Assembly: GCA_015660965.1 (NCBI GenBank)
Contig: JACTVG010000003.1
Location: 124,001 to 188,000 of the forward strand
Origin: Methanoregulaceae archaeon
GTDB taxonomy: Archaea; Halobacteriota; Methanomicrobia; Methanomicrobiales; Methanospirillaceae
Length of the DNA stretch: 64,000 nucleotides
Direction: 5' to 3'
The notes beneath the pieces were generated by a model. The model saw nothing but the letters and a program-made list of their open reading frames with translations. It searched no databases and was not told where the DNA came from. Each line of letters opens with the position of its first letter. Within the stretch, counting starts at the first letter, position 1. This document shows positions 2,547-9,246 of this stretch, in pieces. The position numbers were made by a program, and so were the translations under genes.

Positions 2547-2894
2547 ATGCCTATTCCAGATTTTCAAACATTGATGTTACCTTTTCTAAGAGTAATTGAA
2601 GATGGTCAAGAGTATTCCCTTAAAGATTTGATAAATCAACTTGCGGATGAATTTAATTTGACTGATTTTGAGAGGAATCTTAGATCGGAGAATAGTACAA
2701 ATTACGTTTTTCGAAATAAAGTTGGTTGGGCAAAAGACACATTCCAACTACCAATGAGGAACTCAAATGATTCGTCTCGCAATCCAAAGTATCTTCTCAA
2801 AATTGATTCTGGTCCTAAAAAATATATACTCCTCATCAAAAACTTTAATGAAGATCCCGAAGAATTTAAAGAAGAATTTCCTGAATTTACCTAA
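2547..2894 (+). CDS. Stand-alone Mrr N-terminal domain-like protein
   Basis: The first 70 or so residues, opening MPIPDFQTLMLPFL and ending near NKVGWAKDTF, resemble the winged-helix N-terminal domain of Mrr-type restriction endonucleases. The catalytic Mrr domain, with its D/E-x-K nuclease core, is absent: the protein stops at 115 residues after a lysine- and acid-rich tail. It is either a truncated restriction gene or a stand-alone DNA-binding module. It lies inside the inverted-repeat islet and is AT-rich, which suggests acquisition by transfer. Function is unknown. Confidence 0.6.
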   Translation: MPIPDFQTLMLPFLRVIEDGQEYSLKDLINQLADEFNLTDFERNLRSENSTNYVFRNKVGWAKDTFQLPMRNSNDSSRNPKYLLKIDSGPKKYILLIKNFNEDPEEFKEEFPEFT

Positions 2895-3161
2895 ATATTT
2901 ATTAAATCTTTTTTAATTTTATAAAACTATAATCTTTAATCACTAACTCCAAATCTACGCTCTACCAATTACAATTTATCGCACACATTTTGAGTCATAA
3001 AATAAATTATTAACAATACCATCTTTTCCATCTGCATCATACCCCATAAATAATAATCACCGCGCGTCAGTCTCGTTTATTCATCCTGATTCACAAAATA
3101 AGTGAATATATCGTTTTTCGGCGAAAAATTTTTAAAGGGAGTTACTAACCCGGTTCTGAGT
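2895..3161 (+). promoter_or_regulatory. Non-coding AT-rich stretch with a promoter for the downstream zinc-ribbon gene
   Basis: No credible gene is visible here. A TATA-like TTTTTAAA lies at 3129-3136, and an inverted repeat (ATTCAC/GTGAAT, 3089-3107) sits just upstream of it as a possible operator. Transcription would begin near 3160, at an ATG that opens a 12-codon leader frame. Confidence 0.4.
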
Positions 3162-3200: not shown

Positions 3201-3437
3201 ATGAGAAAGAAAACGTCTCAGAAGGGAGAAACCTGTGAAGAGTGTAAGGTGAAAGTGAAAGTAATTGATCAATCCAGACGTTTGCTTGAACGCGATGAAA
3301 TGGGTGATATGGGCGAGACCGAGGCATCAGAATATGAGGCGGCTGGAATTGGCGGTGATTCTGAGCATTTTGAAATTAATCAAGTTACATATGAATGCCC
3401 CAAATGTCACGATACAAAAACTGTTGAATTTTTGTAA
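3201..3437 (+). CDS. Small two-CxxC zinc-ribbon protein
   Basis: This 78-residue protein begins with a basic stretch, has a CEEC pair near residue 13, an acidic middle section and a CPKC pair near residue 68. Together these could form one zinc ribbon split by a 50-residue loop. No enzymatic motif is visible and I do not recognise the family. It is preceded three bases earlier by the stop of a short possible leader peptide (3162-3197). It lies within the inverted-repeat islet. Confidence 0.55.
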   Translation: MRKKTSQKGETCEECKVKVKVIDQSRRLLERDEMGDMGETEASEYEAAGIGGDSEHFEINQVTYECPKCHDTKTVEFL

Positions 3438-3515
3438 ATTATCTAATATTTTTTAGATGAAAAGTAATATCCCTTCCCCAAGCCATTCCAAAGCAATAGA
3501 ATTTTTCTGATAACA

Positions 3516-3914
3516 TTAATGGCAGAATGGTATCTCAATATTTAATACGAGTTTAACGATGACAAAAATGGCGGCATAAACAATTATTGCTACGATAAAC
3601 CCCGATCCAAATGCGGTAATAAAATCTATCTTCCGCTTATGTTTTTCATCATCGTAATTTTGCATCCCTTTCCGGAGTGCCAAACTCAAATCAGTTCCTA
3701 CAATATCAAATGTTTTACGAGCCTCGTTAAGCACATCATCGCTGATATTACCTATATAATGATGAAGGAAGCCTCGTTTTTCATTTGAAAACTCGTTTAG
3801 GCTAGCTCGTATTTCTTTTTGGGATACTCTGGTCTCTCTCAGAAACTGATTGGTTTTTTCCCACTTTATTTTAAATTCATTTAATTCAAATTTTGCAGCT
3901 TCATCTGATTCCAT
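3516..3914 (-). CDS. Small membrane-anchored coiled-coil protein, unrecognised
   Basis: From the ATG at 3914 the protein is about 132 residues. A charged, probably helical N-terminal part is followed by one or two hydrophobic segments near the C-terminus (around AFGSGFIVAIIVYAAIFVIV). An upstream ATG at 3944 would add a hydrophobic decapeptide and is less likely. The layout suggests a cytoplasmic helical domain tethered to the membrane. No family is recognised. It is the last gene of the inverted-repeat islet. Confidence 0.5.
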   Translation of the reverse strand: MESDEAAKFELNEFKIKWEKTNQFLRETRVSQKEIRASLNEFSNEKRGFLHHYIGNISDDVLNEARKTFDIVGTDLSLALRKGMQNYDDEKHKRKIDFITAFGSGFIVAIIVYAAIFVIVKLVLNIEIPFCH

Positions 3915-3955
3915 AGATAAGAATAGAATAGATATAATTAACAATTTGTCAGCGT

Positions 3956-4006
3956 GTTACCAACCGCGACTTATCACCAACCGTTTTGATCAACGATCAA
4001 CCGTCA
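3956..4006 (-). repeat. Right imperfect inverted repeat of a small islet
   Basis: This is the partner of 2420-2470 in opposite orientation. It contains the exact 16-nt match at 3961-3976 and ends directly before the stop codon of the neighbouring regulator gene at 4008. Confidence 0.6.
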
Positions 4007-4007
4007 A

Positions 4008-4949
4008 TTAATAAGAACCTGAGTCGCCAATAAGATCGATCAGCTCAAAACCGTCGCTGATCCGATGCAATCGGTCCTCTCCAATCACAAGTGTTTTCCC
4101 GATCTTTTTTTGTTTATGATAATCGGTAATAACACACATGGCATGCTTCTTTGCGATTTGTGAGAGATTACCGATGAGAGCGGCACGCTTGACTACTTTT
4201 TGTGCTGTCCCATATCCGGTAAAAATAGTGTGCTCATTAAAGGTAACCAACGCTTGAAATGGAGCGCCTCTTAGTGTGTGAAGTTTCATGCCAATTTCTT
4301 CAAGGAAATGAATTGGAAGAGACAAGTGCGTCTGTTCATTTAGTTCTGCTTGCTCCAACATGTCTTTTGGCGGTTCATGCTTCATGATGTCAATAGACTC
4401 AATCACACCAGTGTTAAAAACCTCCTCAATCTTGATTGCAACATCAAGCGTGGTACCCATCCCGCTCTCGTACTTGCTAATCGTACGTCGAGAGACGCCC
4501 AGTAAGTGTCCGAGATCCCCAAGAGACATTCCCCGAGTTTCGCGCATCTCGCGAAGAACTTCGCCGTTGATATTTACAAATAAACCTCCTGGAGATGCAT
4601 ATATAAGCGGCGGAATTTTTTCAACAAAATAATCGTAAAGTGTCGCCACATTAAAGGCGTAAATACCATATCGAAGGTATACCGCTCCACGCTCAAGATC
4701 AGTATCACGTGCGCGTTCACCAATAATGAGCGGAACGCCCCCAAGGTAACGTGCTATAATCTCTAAGTCGTATGCAACATCTTCGCTTACACTATCTATA
4801 TGGGAGACTACTTTAACGACAAGTAAAGTTCCGTTATTGCGGGCGATGAGATCGAAACTTCGCGGGCGGATCGAGAAACGCTCGGAAACCCCAAACCCCG
4901 CAGTAATCATCACACTTGTTACTAGCTGGAGCGATCGGTCTTGAGTCAT
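4008..4949 (-). CDS. Archaeal HTH transcriptional regulator with nuclease-like N-terminal domain
   Basis: The N-terminal part (RPRSFDLIARNNGTLLVVKVV) resembles the restriction-endonuclease-like fold of a conserved archaeal regulator family. It is followed near residues 130-185 by a Cro/CI-type helix-turn-helix (REMRETRGMSLGDLGHLLG and SRRTISKYESG) and a C-terminal domain of unknown function. I prefer the ATG at 4949 because a palindromic TATA-like element lies 30-40 nt upstream; the ATG at 4979 would put translation inside that element. It is divergent from tiaS. Its targets are unknown. Confidence 0.8.
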   Translation of the reverse strand: MTQDRSLQLVTSVMITAGFGVSERFSIRPRSFDLIARNNGTLLVVKVVSHIDSVSEDVAYDLEIIARYLGGVPLIIGERARDTDLERGAVYLRYGIYAFNVATLYDYFVEKIPPLIYASPGGLFVNINGEVLREMRETRGMSLGDLGHLLGVSRRTISKYESGMGTTLDVAIKIEEVFNTGVIESIDIMKHEPPKDMLEQAELNEQTHLSLPIHFLEEIGMKLHTLRGAPFQALVTFNEHTIFTGYGTAQKVVKRAALIGNLSQIAKKHAMCVITDYHKQKKIGKTLVIGEDRLHRISDGFELIDLIGDSGSY

Positions 4950-4978
4950 TTCCGTTAAGAATGGATATACCACCTGCA

Positions 4979-4990
4979 TATATTAATATA
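4979..4990 (-). promoter_or_regulatory. Palindromic TATA-like element between regulator and tiaS
   Basis: TATATTAATATA is a perfect palindrome. On the minus strand it is well placed to drive the regulator from the ATG at 4949. It is too close to the tiaS start for plus-strand use. Confidence 0.4.
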
Positions 4991-4993
4991 GAC

Positions 4994-6217
4994 ATGCTGA
5001 TCGGGGTCGATGACACGGACTCTCCTAAAGGTATGTGTACTACGTACCTCGGGGCAGTCCTTGCTCGACGTTTACTCCGTGAACATATGAGGGTGCATGA
5101 AGCACGCCTTGTTAGACTCAACCCCAACGTCACGTTCAAAACGCGAGGAAATGCGGCCATTGCACTTGATGTGAAAGGTGACACCGATCTTGCGTTTAAA
5201 ATTGCATGCTCAACAGTGGAAGAGCTAGCGGATTTTTCATGTGAAAATACTAATCCTGGATTAGTTGTTGTTGAAGAATCCCTCAACTCCGAATTTTATT
5301 GGCGTGCTGTCCGCGATTTCTGTGAGATTGATGATGCGATTAATATTCTCGATTTGGCTAATGCACGCTATCGCGGATATAAAAACCGCCGGGGATTAAT
5401 CGGTGCAACAGCTGCCGTAGCAAGCGAGTTCCCTGATGTCACCTTTGAGATCCTTACATATAGGAAACCTGAACGATGGGGTACACCACGAAGTGTCGAC
5501 CGGGAAAGCCTATTCACAGCACAATTAACAACATTCCCGCAAACATGGGATACTGTTGATCAAGATAACGATGTGGTTGTTTGTGTACCGCACACACCCG
5601 ATCCGGTGTTATTTGGTATTAGAGGTGAAAGCCCTTCGTGGGTAATGGTCGCTCGGTCGATGATTAAATCAGAGAATTCGGAGATCGAACAAATCTGGAT
5701 TTCAAATCAAGGTACTGACGTTCACCTTCAAAAAGGAGAGATTGGAGAACTTAAAGAGGGGCTCTCGTACTTTGTGAAAGGCGTGGTAACTAATTCACCG
5801 AAAACCGGTATTGGCGGCCACGTTTCATTTACTATAAAAGATGGCGGTCATTCGGTTCGATGTATGGCATACGAACCAACGAAAGGATTTCGAACTATTG
5901 TTCGACATCTGGTTCCGGGTGATATCATAATTGCTGTTGGAAGTTACAAGAAAGGGAGTATCAATTTAGAGAAGATGGTTGTGGTTGAATTAGTAAACGT
6001 AATCAGCACTCGTCCTCCTTTATGTTCAACATGTAACAAGAGAATGACAAGTGATGGGAGAGACAAGGGGTATAAATGTAAAAAGTGCGGAAAACATGCT
6101 AATACTCCAGAGATCCAAAAGATGCCAAGGAAACTTGAGGTGGGATGGTACGAGGTGCCCCCAACTGCAAGAAGACATTTGGCAAAACCGCTATGCAGGT
6201 TCGTACCTTATTTATGA
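4994..6217 (+). CDS. tiaS: tRNA(Ile2) 2-agmatinylcytidine synthetase TiaS
   Basis: TiaS uses ATP and agmatine to modify C34 of the AUA-decoding tRNA-Ile to agmatidine. The protein starts at the ATG giving MLIGVDDTDS, the conserved N-terminal motif; the longer open frame upstream lacks family similarity. It continues with MCTTYLGA, an OB-fold region near residues 260-340 and a C-terminal zinc ribbon (CSTC and CKKC). Length (407 residues) fits the family. The nearby downstream genes dys and pyrF may be co-transcribed. Confidence 0.95.
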   Translation: MLIGVDDTDSPKGMCTTYLGAVLARRLLREHMRVHEARLVRLNPNVTFKTRGNAAIALDVKGDTDLAFKIACSTVEELADFSCENTNPGLVVVEESLNSEFYWRAVRDFCEIDDAINILDLANARYRGYKNRRGLIGATAAVASEFPDVTFEILTYRKPERWGTPRSVDRESLFTAQLTTFPQTWDTVDQDNDVVVCVPHTPDPVLFGIRGESPSWVMVARSMIKSENSEIEQIWISNQGTDVHLQKGEIGELKEGLSYFVKGVVTNSPKTGIGGHVSFTIKDGGHSVRCMAYEPTKGFRTIVRHLVPGDIIIAVGSYKKGSINLEKMVVVELVNVISTRPPLCSTCNKRMTSDGRDKGYKCKKCGKHANTPEIQKMPRKLEVGWYEVPPTARRHLAKPLCRFVPYL

Positions 6218-6304: not shown

Positions 6305-7243
6305 ATGGCAAAAAAATACGATGAGCCGGTTACCCAAATACATATCAAACCTAAAATGACGGTTGGTGAACTTGTCAATGCTATGGGAAAAGCTGGCGCA
6401 TATAACGGTGGAGCTCTTTTTAAGGCTGTGGAAATTTATGAGAGGATGCTTCGGGACCCTAAAGCAACAAAATTCTTTGGTTTAGCTGGCGCAATGGTTC
6501 CTGCAGGGATGGGGGGGATCGTTGCTGACTTGATCTCAAAAGGACATATTGACGTCCTTGTCTCAACAGGAGCTAACCTTACCCACGACATTGTAGAAGC
6601 AATAGGGTGTCGTCACTTTCATGGAACAGCATTCTGCAATGACGTCGAGCTTAGGCATGATGAGATTAATCGGATCTATGATATCTACCTCCCCAATGAA
6701 GCATTCGAAAAATTTGAGGGGTTTATTCAGCAGATATTTTCCGAGCTGGAACCGGAAAGTACTATATCTATTTGTGATCTTCTTTGCCATATTGGACATC
6801 GAACAAAAAAAGGAATACTACATAATGCGATGAAAAAAAGCATCCCGGTCTTCTGCCCTGCTATTCAAGACTCCATGATTGGGCTTCAATATTGGCTCTT
6901 CTCCCAAACCAATCATGTTGTGATAGATTCTTTTGCCGATATGCCAGCACTCATGGATAAGTGTTTTACCGCAGAAAAATCCGGTGCACTATTGGTCGGG
7001 GGGGGCGTGCCGAAGAATTTTATCCTTCAAAGTATGTTGATGACTCCTAATGGTTTCAATTATGCCATTCAGCTTACCGGAGATCGACCTGACCTAGGGG
7101 GATTATCAGGCGCTACATTGGACGAAGCCCGCTCGTGGGGTAAAATTACCGAAGAGGCAGAGGCAATAACAGTGTACGGAGATGCAACTATAACACTGCC
7201 AATTCTTGTTGCCGCCGTTATGGAGCGAATGCTGCATGACTAA
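6305..7243 (+). CDS. dys: Deoxyhypusine synthase
   Basis: It transfers the aminobutyl group of spermidine to a lysine of aIF5A, using NAD. The C-terminal motif RSWGKI contains the lysine that forms the enzyme intermediate in this family. STGANLTHD and GGGVPKN are typical nucleotide and substrate-binding segments. The ATG at 6305 has GGAG five bases upstream; the TTG at 6293 is an alternative four codons earlier. The stop overlaps the pyrF start by eight bases. Confidence 0.95.
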   Translation: MAKKYDEPVTQIHIKPKMTVGELVNAMGKAGAYNGGALFKAVEIYERMLRDPKATKFFGLAGAMVPAGMGGIVADLISKGHIDVLVSTGANLTHDIVEAIGCRHFHGTAFCNDVELRHDEINRIYDIYLPNEAFEKFEGFIQQIFSELEPESTISICDLLCHIGHRTKKGILHNAMKKSIPVFCPAIQDSMIGLQYWLFSQTNHVVIDSFADMPALMDKCFTAEKSGALLVGGGVPKNFILQSMLMTPNGFNYAIQLTGDRPDLGGLSGATLDEARSWGKITEEAEAITVYGDATITLPILVAAVMERMLHD

Positions 7244-7874
7244 ACTAATACTTGCTTTAGATGTTTTAGATAAAGATAGGGCAATTAAGATTTGTAATTC
7301 ATGTGCACCATACATTGACGCAATTAAGATTGGATATCCACTTGTTCTTTCTGCAGGATTGGGAATTGCACGGGATCTTTTAAAATTCAAATTACCCCTA
7401 ATTGCCGATTTTAAAGTTGCCGATATTCCGAACACAAACCAACTGATTGCAGAACAAGTCTTTTCGGCAGGGTTCTCTGCAATCATCTGCCACGCGTTCA
7501 CAGGTAGAGACGCTGTTCAAGTATGTGTTGATAGTGCCCATCTTCATGATGGCGAGTGTTTCGTTGTTGCTGAAATGAGTCACCCTGGTGCCACTGAATT
7601 TTTCCATGGAGGTGTTGCAGAGCGACTCGCCCAAGTCGCACTCGCTTGTCGGGCAGATGGCATTATTGTACCAGCTACTCGGCCAGAACGTGTGAAAAAA
7701 CTGCGTTCTATAATTGGAGAAAAAAAGATCTATGCACCAGGTGTCGGAACACAAGGTGGAGATCTGCGTACTATTGTTGGAATTGTCGACGGTATTATAG
7801 TTGGTAGAGCGATTTACGAAGCGGATAACCCTGCCACAGCAGTTAAAGAATATCATCGCTCCTGTAAGACGTGA
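7236..7874 (+). CDS. pyrF: Orotidine 5'-phosphate decarboxylase
   Basis: It catalyses the last step of UMP synthesis. The catalytic motif ADFKVADIPNT (family pattern DxKxxDI) lies near residues 60-70, and the phosphate-binding loop PGVGTQGGDLR near the C-terminus. The start at 7236 gives MTKLILALDV, the usual N-terminus, and overlaps the end of dys by eight bases, so the two are translationally coupled. Length (212 residues) is normal for archaeal PyrF. Confidence 0.96.
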   Translation: MTKLILALDVLDKDRAIKICNSCAPYIDAIKIGYPLVLSAGLGIARDLLKFKLPLIADFKVADIPNTNQLIAEQVFSAGFSAIICHAFTGRDAVQVCVDSAHLHDGECFVVAEMSHPGATEFFHGGVAERLAQVALACRADGIIVPATRPERVKKLRSIIGEKKIYAPGVGTQGGDLRTIVGIVDGIIVGRAIYEADNPATAVKEYHRSCKT

Positions 7875-7999: not shown

Positions 8000-8362
8000 A
8001 TGGATTGGAGCGCAGAGCAAAAGAATTTGGCAAAAAAATATATGAAACTCGAAGATATTCCAGAAAAAGAAAGAAAATACAAGTGTCACACTTGCCATCT
8101 CATTGTTAATACAAAGCCCTGCCCAAATTGTGGTGAGACTCATCTGGAAATCATGTGCCCTCTCGATCATTGTCACTGTTCTCATGAAATATTATCCGGG
8201 ATAGAGTACTGCCCACTCTGCAAACAACCAGTGTGTCCCGATTGTGGTTGCCATGATGTCGTTCAGATTAGTAGAGTTACTGGATATTTACAGGATGTGT
8301 CTGGCTGGAATGCAGGTAAACAACAGGAACTCAAAGACCGGGTTCGCTATTCTGTTGCATGA
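8000..8362 (+). CDS. Stand-alone glycyl-radical domain of anaerobic ribonucleotide reductase
   Basis: The C-terminal 40 residues (CPDCGCHDVVQISRVTGYL and a following WNAGKQQELKDR) match the C-terminus of class III NrdD. That region includes the zinc-binding cysteines and the RVTGYL loop, whose glycine carries the radical. The large catalytic barrel is absent; the protein is only 120 residues. The N-terminal half adds further CxxC pairs (CHTC, CPNC, CPLC). It overlaps cbiZ by four bases. It could be a split NrdD partner, or a YfiD-like spare radical domain that repairs a damaged reductase. Both roles are inference. Confidence 0.8.
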   Translation: MDWSAEQKNLAKKYMKLEDIPEKERKYKCHTCHLIVNTKPCPNCGETHLEIMCPLDHCHCSHEILSGIEYCPLCKQPVCPDCGCHDVVQISRVTGYLQDVSGWNAGKQQELKDRVRYSVA

Positions 8363-9246
8363 GATATTTTTTTGATAATAACACACTTTTTATTCGCGGA
8401 ACGTTTCGTGCCGCCAGTACGGGAATTTCTGGTGGTTTGGGTTTGGTTTCAACTATAATCAACCAAACCGTTCCCACTCATTGGAATCATGAAGGACCAG
8501 AAAAGGAACTCGAACGGGTTGTTACTGGAGCTGGGTTTGGCCGAGATTATTTTGGGATGCTTACTGCAGTACCAATGCGTAACCTCTGTGTTCTCCAGTA
8601 CGACTTTGTGACTGTTTTTATCACCGCAGGTATAACAACCACACAAAAAAACCACGCTAGGACCATCAATATCATTACCTATAGCAGCCAGGGAGTAAGC
8701 GATGCTGCCCTAATTGAAACAATCATGATTGCCACTGAGGCAAAAGTGGTAGCATTACGCAATGCGGGAAAATCTATTCCCGGCACTCCTACAGATGCAG
8801 TTATTGCTGCTTGTGAGGGAAAGAAGGAGCATGAATATGCTGGTATCCTTACTGAAGTTGGAAAGAGAGTATATGGTGCCGTTCTTTACGGTATTCCTGT
8901 TGCACTTCGTCAATTTGAGAATAAGATTCAGCAAGATCACAAGTCATTCTTTATTTTCAGTCGCTTCAAAGGTGATCACTGGGTAGAATGGTCACCTGAG
9001 ACTTGTCCCTATCGCCCATGCCATTTTATTGGACAGCGATGCGATTTTTGTTATTGCCCACTTTATCCCTGCGGAGATGAGAGTTTAGGGCAGTGGGTAG
9101 AGAGTAGTAATGGGAGGATGGTTTGGAACTGTAGTCAATGCACGTTACTTCACGAACCAAAAATTGCAGATTATCTAAAGCAATACCCAGAGGCATCAAA
9201 AGACGAACTTTTACGCCTCCATAGAGCAAAAAAACGGAAGATCTGA
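8359..9246 (+). CDS. cbiZ: Adenosylcobinamide amidohydrolase CbiZ fused to a cysteine-rich domain
   Basis: Residues 1-210 resemble CbiZ, which cleaves the aminopropanol side chain of cobinamide to cobyric acid so that archaea can salvage incomplete corrinoids. Conserved segments are ASTGISGGLG, VTGAGFGRDYFGMLTAVP, TAGITTTQ and GTPTDAV. Residues 210-280 form a cysteine-rich small domain (CDFCYCPLYPCGD and CSQCTLLHEP) that is found attached to other cobamide genes and probably binds metal. The start overlaps the upstream stop (ATGA), so it is coupled to the glycyl-radical gene. Confidence 0.9.
   Translation: MRYFFDNNTLFIRGTFRAASTGISGGLGLVSTIINQTVPTHWNHEGPEKELERVVTGAGFGRDYFGMLTAVPMRNLCVLQYDFVTVFITAGITTTQKNHARTINIITYSSQGVSDAALIETIMIATEAKVVALRNAGKSIPGTPTDAVIAACEGKKEHEYAGILTEVGKRVYGAVLYGIPVALRQFENKIQQDHKSFFIFSRFKGDHWVEWSPETCPYRPCHFIGQRCDFCYCPLYPCGDESLGQWVESSNGRMVWNCSQCTLLHEPKIADYLKQYPEASKDELLRLHRAKKRKI

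Follow-up and report, generated by a model that had tools for sequence, protein, structure and literature searches.

A putative two-chain class III ribonucleotide reductase with a separate glycyl-radical protein in Methanomicrobiales

Class III ribonucleotide reductase (RNR), or NrdD, is an anaerobic, oxygen-sensitive enzyme that supplies the precursors of DNA. In ordinary NrdD the glycyl-radical domain (GRD) flips out for activation, according to passages of PMC12662201; in PcNrdD the core runs to residue 671 and the GRD from 676 to 739 (part of PMC11226230). Glycyl-radical domains can also act in trans: YfiD together with an activase restores cleaved pyruvate formate-lyase (PFL), and the N-terminal half of YfiD helps binding. 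The passages concerned (in PMC8683613) name the PFL spare parts YfiD and Y06I as validated trans-acting glycyl domains and add that spare parts for other enzymes may exist. A split RNR has been described in Pseudomonas aeruginosa, namely the class II pair NrdJa/NrdJb (PMC5704485 and PMC9669993); the relevant portions of these two articles describe split class II only, and searches of the open-licence literature yielded no paper that describes a split enzyme of class III.

We analysed a window of 64,000 nucleotides from a Methanoregulaceae archaeon (contig JACTVG010000003.1, positions 124,001 to 188,000), in which a small gene had been predicted to encode the glycyl-radical domain of NrdD without its catalytic barrel. 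Sequence comparisons indicate that the small protein is very probably a separate, obligatory subunit that carries the glycyl radical for a split class III RNR; NrdG would be its activase, and a truncated NrdD the chain into which it docks.

The small protein and its neighbourhood

The small protein matched the Pfam family PF13597 (NRDD) at residues 54-117, on positions 507-562 of the 562 in the profile (E = 4.8e-13), with 49.1 bits against a cut-off of 26.2. TIGR02487 NrdD and the other NCBIfam NrdD models aligned to it with their C-terminal profile positions only. In a profile search the nearest solved structure was the class III RNR PDB 8p23 (E = 7e-8), the sole strongly matching solved relative, and this match covered the GRD. 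Zinc-ribbon families gave Pfam matches below their cut-offs only, and the PFL-type Gly_radical family (PF01228) was absent from the Pfam matches. Mere likeness to zinc ribbons, which the original prediction had named as evidence that would speak against it, was thus rejected, and the comparisons confirmed a genuine NrdD-type glycyl-radical domain without the barrel, beyond chance similarity, with G95 and the zinc-type cysteines in place (Table 1). The zinc role predicted for the cysteines next to the radical loop is based on the structural Zn site in the GRD of a class III RNR (part of PMC11226230).

Table 1 Features of the small gene and its neighbours (window coordinates)
Feature	Position	Strand	Description
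pyrF	7206-7874	+	Orotidine 5'-phosphate decarboxylase (PF00215); conserved upstream neighbour; listed start probably too early
Stand-alone NrdD-type glycyl-radical protein	8000-8362	+	120 aa, ATG start; PF13597 match at the C-terminus; proposed radical subunit of a split class III RNR
N-terminal cysteine-rich ribbon, C29 to C60	8084-8179	+	CxxC...CPxC...CPLDxxxC; invariant columns in both homologue alignments
Predicted zinc site of the GRD	8210-8245	+	C71-P-L-C74 and C79-P-D-C82; cysteines invariant in 35/35 rows
RVTGYL radical loop	8273-8290	+	R92-V-T-G95-Y-L; read directly; aligned to the GRD of 8p23
Codon of G95 (radical glycine)	8282-8284	+	Read from the sequence
cbiZ	8359-9246	+	Adenosylcobinamide amidohydrolase (PF01955); 4-nt overlap with the small gene; conserved neighbour

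The protein was exactly 120 aa long in all 35 homologues from 32 genera (window included), and G95 and ten cysteines (29, 32, 41, 44, 53, 60, 71, 74, 79 and 82) were invariant in 35/35, so that the extra CxxC pairs of the original prediction are real. A second set, 52 homologues from named records, likewise showed no exception at G95, and Y96 was invariant in both alignments. The N-terminal ribbon had no counterpart in the full-length NrdD C-termini compared. The dN/dS of the small gene, tried on 11 pairs, was 0.06-0.07 in two same-genus pairs; in the remaining pairs dS was saturated or no estimate was obtained. An AlphaFold model of the protein had a mean pLDDT of 70.5, with the glycyl loop below 50, and Foldseek returned no match for this model at E <= 0.001.

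The genes between window positions 4916 and 10811, in the order tiaS, deoxyhypusine synthase, pyrF, radical protein, cbiZ, DUF1858 (opposite strand) and RPA, are largely conserved in their arrangement across 32 genera. The predicted overlap with cbiZ was present. CbiZ serves cobinamide salvage; its C-terminus carries a cysteine-rich, zf-like domain (PF04071), beside the cysteine-rich radical protein. In the genus set, cbiZ lay less than 400 nt downstream of the small gene in 32 of 34 loci, with an ATGA overlap in 27; of the other two, one had no cbiZ next to it and one was at a contig end. Of 265 named relatives of the small gene, 80 were kept; by their record titles these are Methanomicrobiales or unplaced Euryarchaeota MAGs, and 64 of the 80 had the small gene followed by cbiZ within 400 nt (overlapping in 51), the rest having a cbiZ match only further downstream (12) or a contig end (4).

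The truncated NrdD and its distribution

The genome of the window is an assembly of 2.43 Mb in 170 contigs, 99.88% complete and with 3.61% contamination. A PF13597 search gave exactly two matches in it, covering profile positions 1-512 and 507-562, and found no NrdD with its own glycyl domain. The former match, which settles whether an nrdD gene is encoded elsewhere and how it ends, is an intact ORF of 729 aa on another contig than the small gene: it carries an ATP-cone (PF03477) and the NrdD barrel, and its C-terminal glycyl domain is missing. A frame-broken NrdD, the other finding that was to speak against the prediction, was rejected, since the rest of NrdD is one intact ORF and since the halves lie far apart in single-contig genomes (see below). 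The active-site motifs RPFC(QDWDL), CYQCC and NCPRA are kept in the truncated NrdD, and NAN (flap) and HIHD are readable in its sequence. Its C-terminus reads ...NTQIGYFAFTRDLTVSLRQF and then a variable tail, i.e., the ORF stops after ...GYFAFTRDLTV and a short variable stretch, the point past which full-length relatives run on with ...DMTVC...CPNC...SRVTGY...GWN.GK.QEL.DR. By alignment, the truncation point is the border between core and GRD of PcNrdD.

A gene for a glutaredoxin-like NrdH is located immediately upstream, its end at the start of the truncated nrdD; such a glutaredoxin-like gene adjoined truncated nrdD in 30 of 31 loci examined, and the split NrdDs examined were 76-92% identical to the one of this genome. 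Barrel and glycyl domain in one chain, a feature of class III RNRs, were not found together in this genome, which judged by its sequences has a putative class III RNR with the family's parts in two chains. The parallel with YfiD drawn in the original prediction held in part. YfiD/GrcA coexists with an intact partner enzyme; here no NrdD with its own glycyl domain was found, and for this reason the small protein is not a YfiD-like spare in its own genome, whereas a related protein outside the order does stand beside an intact NrdD (see below).

Searches of the same genome with PF02867 (class I/II RNR large subunit), TIGR02505 (monomeric class II RNR) and PF01228 gave no match, the last of which led us to reject a PFL-type glycyl-radical enzyme as partner in this genome. 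A radical-SAM activase of the NrdG2 type was found at G000:C4:406777, where TIGR02495 scored above its cut-off.

Among 159 Methanomicrobiales genomes, both halves were present in 141, neither in 13, the catalytic half only in 3 and the small protein only in 2. In single-contig genomes the two genes were 19 kb (18.8 kb) to 2.3 Mb apart in 25/25 and neighbours in 0/25, so binning cannot explain the split. The three catalytic-only genomes (G012, G116 and G130) all lacked a cbiZ match, and therefore the whole locus is probably missing from these assemblies; the two genomes with the small protein only are assemblies of 660 and 810 contigs. A catalytic half was present in 144 genomes, and in 141 of them a split-type NrdD match among those listed ended at profile positions 500-516; in G084 and G096 the match ended at 336, and for G047 the matches listed do not cover the end of the gene. 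G086 was the sole genome of the order with an additional NrdD reaching position 560 among the matches listed: a divergent gene with its own glycyl domain (L097:2677-4386), beside the split pair.

The 13 genomes with neither half belong to one genus (g21, G014-G026) and thus represent at most one independent loss; a weak small-protein match in G017 (E = 5.9e-4, inside a 1147-aa frame) was counted as absence. No small gene was found in the 13 g21 genomes searched, yet cbiZ was kept in 13/13, in several still beside the DUF1858 and RPA genes. Since this genus kept cbiZ without either half, the small protein tracks NrdD, not cbiZ. The link to cobamide salvage that had been suggested comes down to a conserved gene pair; no B12-dependent RNR was found in the genome of the window, and we claim no functional link between the two genes.

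PF02867 was present in 129 of the 159 genomes, including all 13 of g21. The 30 genomes without it, that of the window among them, had both NrdD halves in 30/30, and three of these are single-contig assemblies (G132, G139 and G142). In such genomes the split enzyme appears to be the sole RNR. The split enzyme need not be essential in the 129, because a class I/II-type large subunit is also present there.

Two further observations concern the nrdD genes of the order. One locus (L098, G033:C1:284000-303600) holds two truncated nrdD copies separated by about 15 kb; the frame of one of them is shorter, at 673 aa. Many nrdD genes have frames of 1200-2008 aa in which the NRDD match is broken near positions 53 and 259-263 (e.g., G051:C1:965170-966045), a pattern that suggests that each such gene contains one or two inteins.

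Stand-alone domains outside the order

Stand-alone or short NrdD glycyl domains were also found outside the order, in at least 13 genomes of a phylum sample of 391 genomes (Methanomicrobiales included): seven of g57, one of g43, two of g78, two of g122, and G205. An NrdD match through position 562 was present in 12 of the 13, and in G393 two pieces together reached it. Degradation or shortening is apparent in three of the 13 copies: Cys replaces the radical glycine in G427, the end is lost in G205, and the copy in G383 is short. A type-B-like fragment at L248:4020-4205 reads RVTCY, with Cys for the radical glycine, in a genome with an intact NrdD. In L251 a degraded type-B glycyl-domain protein (2834-3160) lies directly upstream of 3403-5802, which by eye looks like a class II RNR gene.

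In a tree of the glycyl domain (48 columns, unrooted) the stand-alone types A (the window family) and B grouped together with support 100/96.6 against 28 ordinary NrdD C-termini, the support being 81/60 for A alone and 92/75 for B alone. This grouping speaks for a stand-alone protein that arose before the truncation or independently of it. Since the tree is unrooted, fission of NrdD followed by transfer outwards is also a possible origin of the domains outside the order. The split catalytic subunits formed one clade (31/31) against 21 full-length relatives with support 100/100; seven shorter NrdDs of another type (L226 and L229-L234) were excluded from this tree, as were L024, L098 and L227, which are partial or duplicate copies, and L205 was on a very long branch.

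Because the related domain found beside intact NrdD clusters with the protein of Methanomicrobiales, the order's only copy may have started out as a YfiD-like spare. We tentatively propose, as an account somewhat short of probable, that the stand-alone glycyl-radical protein predates the truncation, that the resident domain was then lost and that the RNR became an obligate two-chain enzyme. If so, the separate protein that stores the radical may be open to sharing, to exchange or to replacement once damaged, with no need to make the 80-kDa enzyme anew.

Proposed mechanism, alternatives and relation to known systems

A detached GRD is chemically plausible, because the domain flips out for activation in ordinary NrdD. 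For the split enzyme we infer the following course of assembly, activation and catalysis. The catalytic subunit, encoded elsewhere, has the barrel with its active-site cysteines as well as the ATP-cone, and its chain ends at the last barrel strand. NrdG, a radical SAM enzyme, would abstract a hydrogen from G95, held by the zinc-bound scaffold of the small protein, and the activated protein would then dock into the truncated NrdD with its RVTGYL loop inside the barrel. There the glycyl radical would generate a thiyl radical at the cysteine of the finger loop (CYQCC), and the substrate would be reduced with electrons from the glutaredoxin-like NrdH. By analogy with YfiD, the N-terminal ribbon may aid binding to the truncated NrdD.

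Other readings of the two genes have to be weighed against this one. The size and layout of the small protein resemble those of YfiD (passages of PMC8683613), and outside the order related domains of the stand-alone kind occur beside an intact NrdD, as would be expected of a spare that only repairs oxygen-cleaved NrdD and is no standing subunit. This is very unlikely: the NrdD to be repaired lacks the domain from the outset, both in this genome and in the order, where among the matches listed an extra NrdD reaching position 560 occurs only as the divergent gene of G086, and for the genome of the window such a role is refuted unless an intact NrdD was missed in an assembly that is 99.88% complete. 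It is also unlikely, if a little less so, that the truncated NrdD is decaying and the small protein a leftover with another job (e.g., with CbiZ in cobamide metabolism), dNTPs being made by a class II RNR. A class I/II large subunit in 129/159 genomes and the conserved pairing with cbiZ would suit such a remnant. Against it stand the genome of the window and 29 others without that subunit, the 76-92% identity of the split NrdDs examined to the one of this genome with their active-site cysteines kept, and the NrdD-less genus, which is also without the small protein while having cbiZ in 13/13.

The number of contigs (170) and the contamination (3.61%) of the assembly leave room for the idea that a normal nrdD merely looks split in a fragmented or contaminated MAG; we give it almost no probability, since it is refuted by the 25 single-contig genomes with the same two unlinked genes, and the small gene moreover keeps its neighbourhood across 32 genera and its 120 aa at every locus compared. 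Joining of separately made halves by a split intein into an ordinary NrdD could be imagined because many nrdD frames of the order, 1200-2000 aa long with the NRDD match in pieces, suggest ordinary inteins. At the ends that would have to be joined, the truncated NrdD has a short tail of variable sequence and the small protein its conserved cysteine-rich ribbon; neither looks long enough for an intein half, which makes this reading extremely improbable.

With the two-chain enzyme as the preferred reading, anaerobic ribonucleotide reduction across an entire archaeal order seems to use a radical carried by a separate protein of 13.5 kDa. The installation of the radical, its transfer and the control of the glycyl domain by dATP could then be tested on two components that are separate in nature, and the order would illustrate how an enzyme could come to depend on what began as a repair part. 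Split NrdDs will be misjudged wherever annotation or phylogenies require the C-terminal domain.

Compared with the class III NrdDs of Prevotella copri (PcNrdD, PDB 8p23), T4 and T. maritima, the system described here shares the ATP-cone (where present), the barrel, the finger-loop and other active-site cysteines, the Zn-type GRD with an RVTGYL-like loop, an NrdG-type activase gene and a redoxin gene beside nrdD; in those enzymes the GRD is the C-terminus of the same chain, whereas here it is encoded by a gene of its own and has an additional cysteine-rich ribbon. YfiD/GrcA, the autonomous glycyl radical cofactor of PFL, and Y06I of T4 have a PFL-type domain and rescue an enzyme that has its own, while here the domain is of the NrdD type and the enzyme has none. 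The type-B stand-alone domains (L239-L246, L249 and L250) share the CPxC-x4-CPxC spacing and the radical loop with the window family but have a different N-terminus, coexist with intact NrdD and are sporadic. NrdJa/NrdJb, as described in the passages cited above, is likewise an RNR in two chains, a main one and a small, cysteine-rich one from the C-terminal side; it is a B12-dependent class II enzyme whose detached part has no stored radical, and the likeness is one of arrangement, with no homology claimed.
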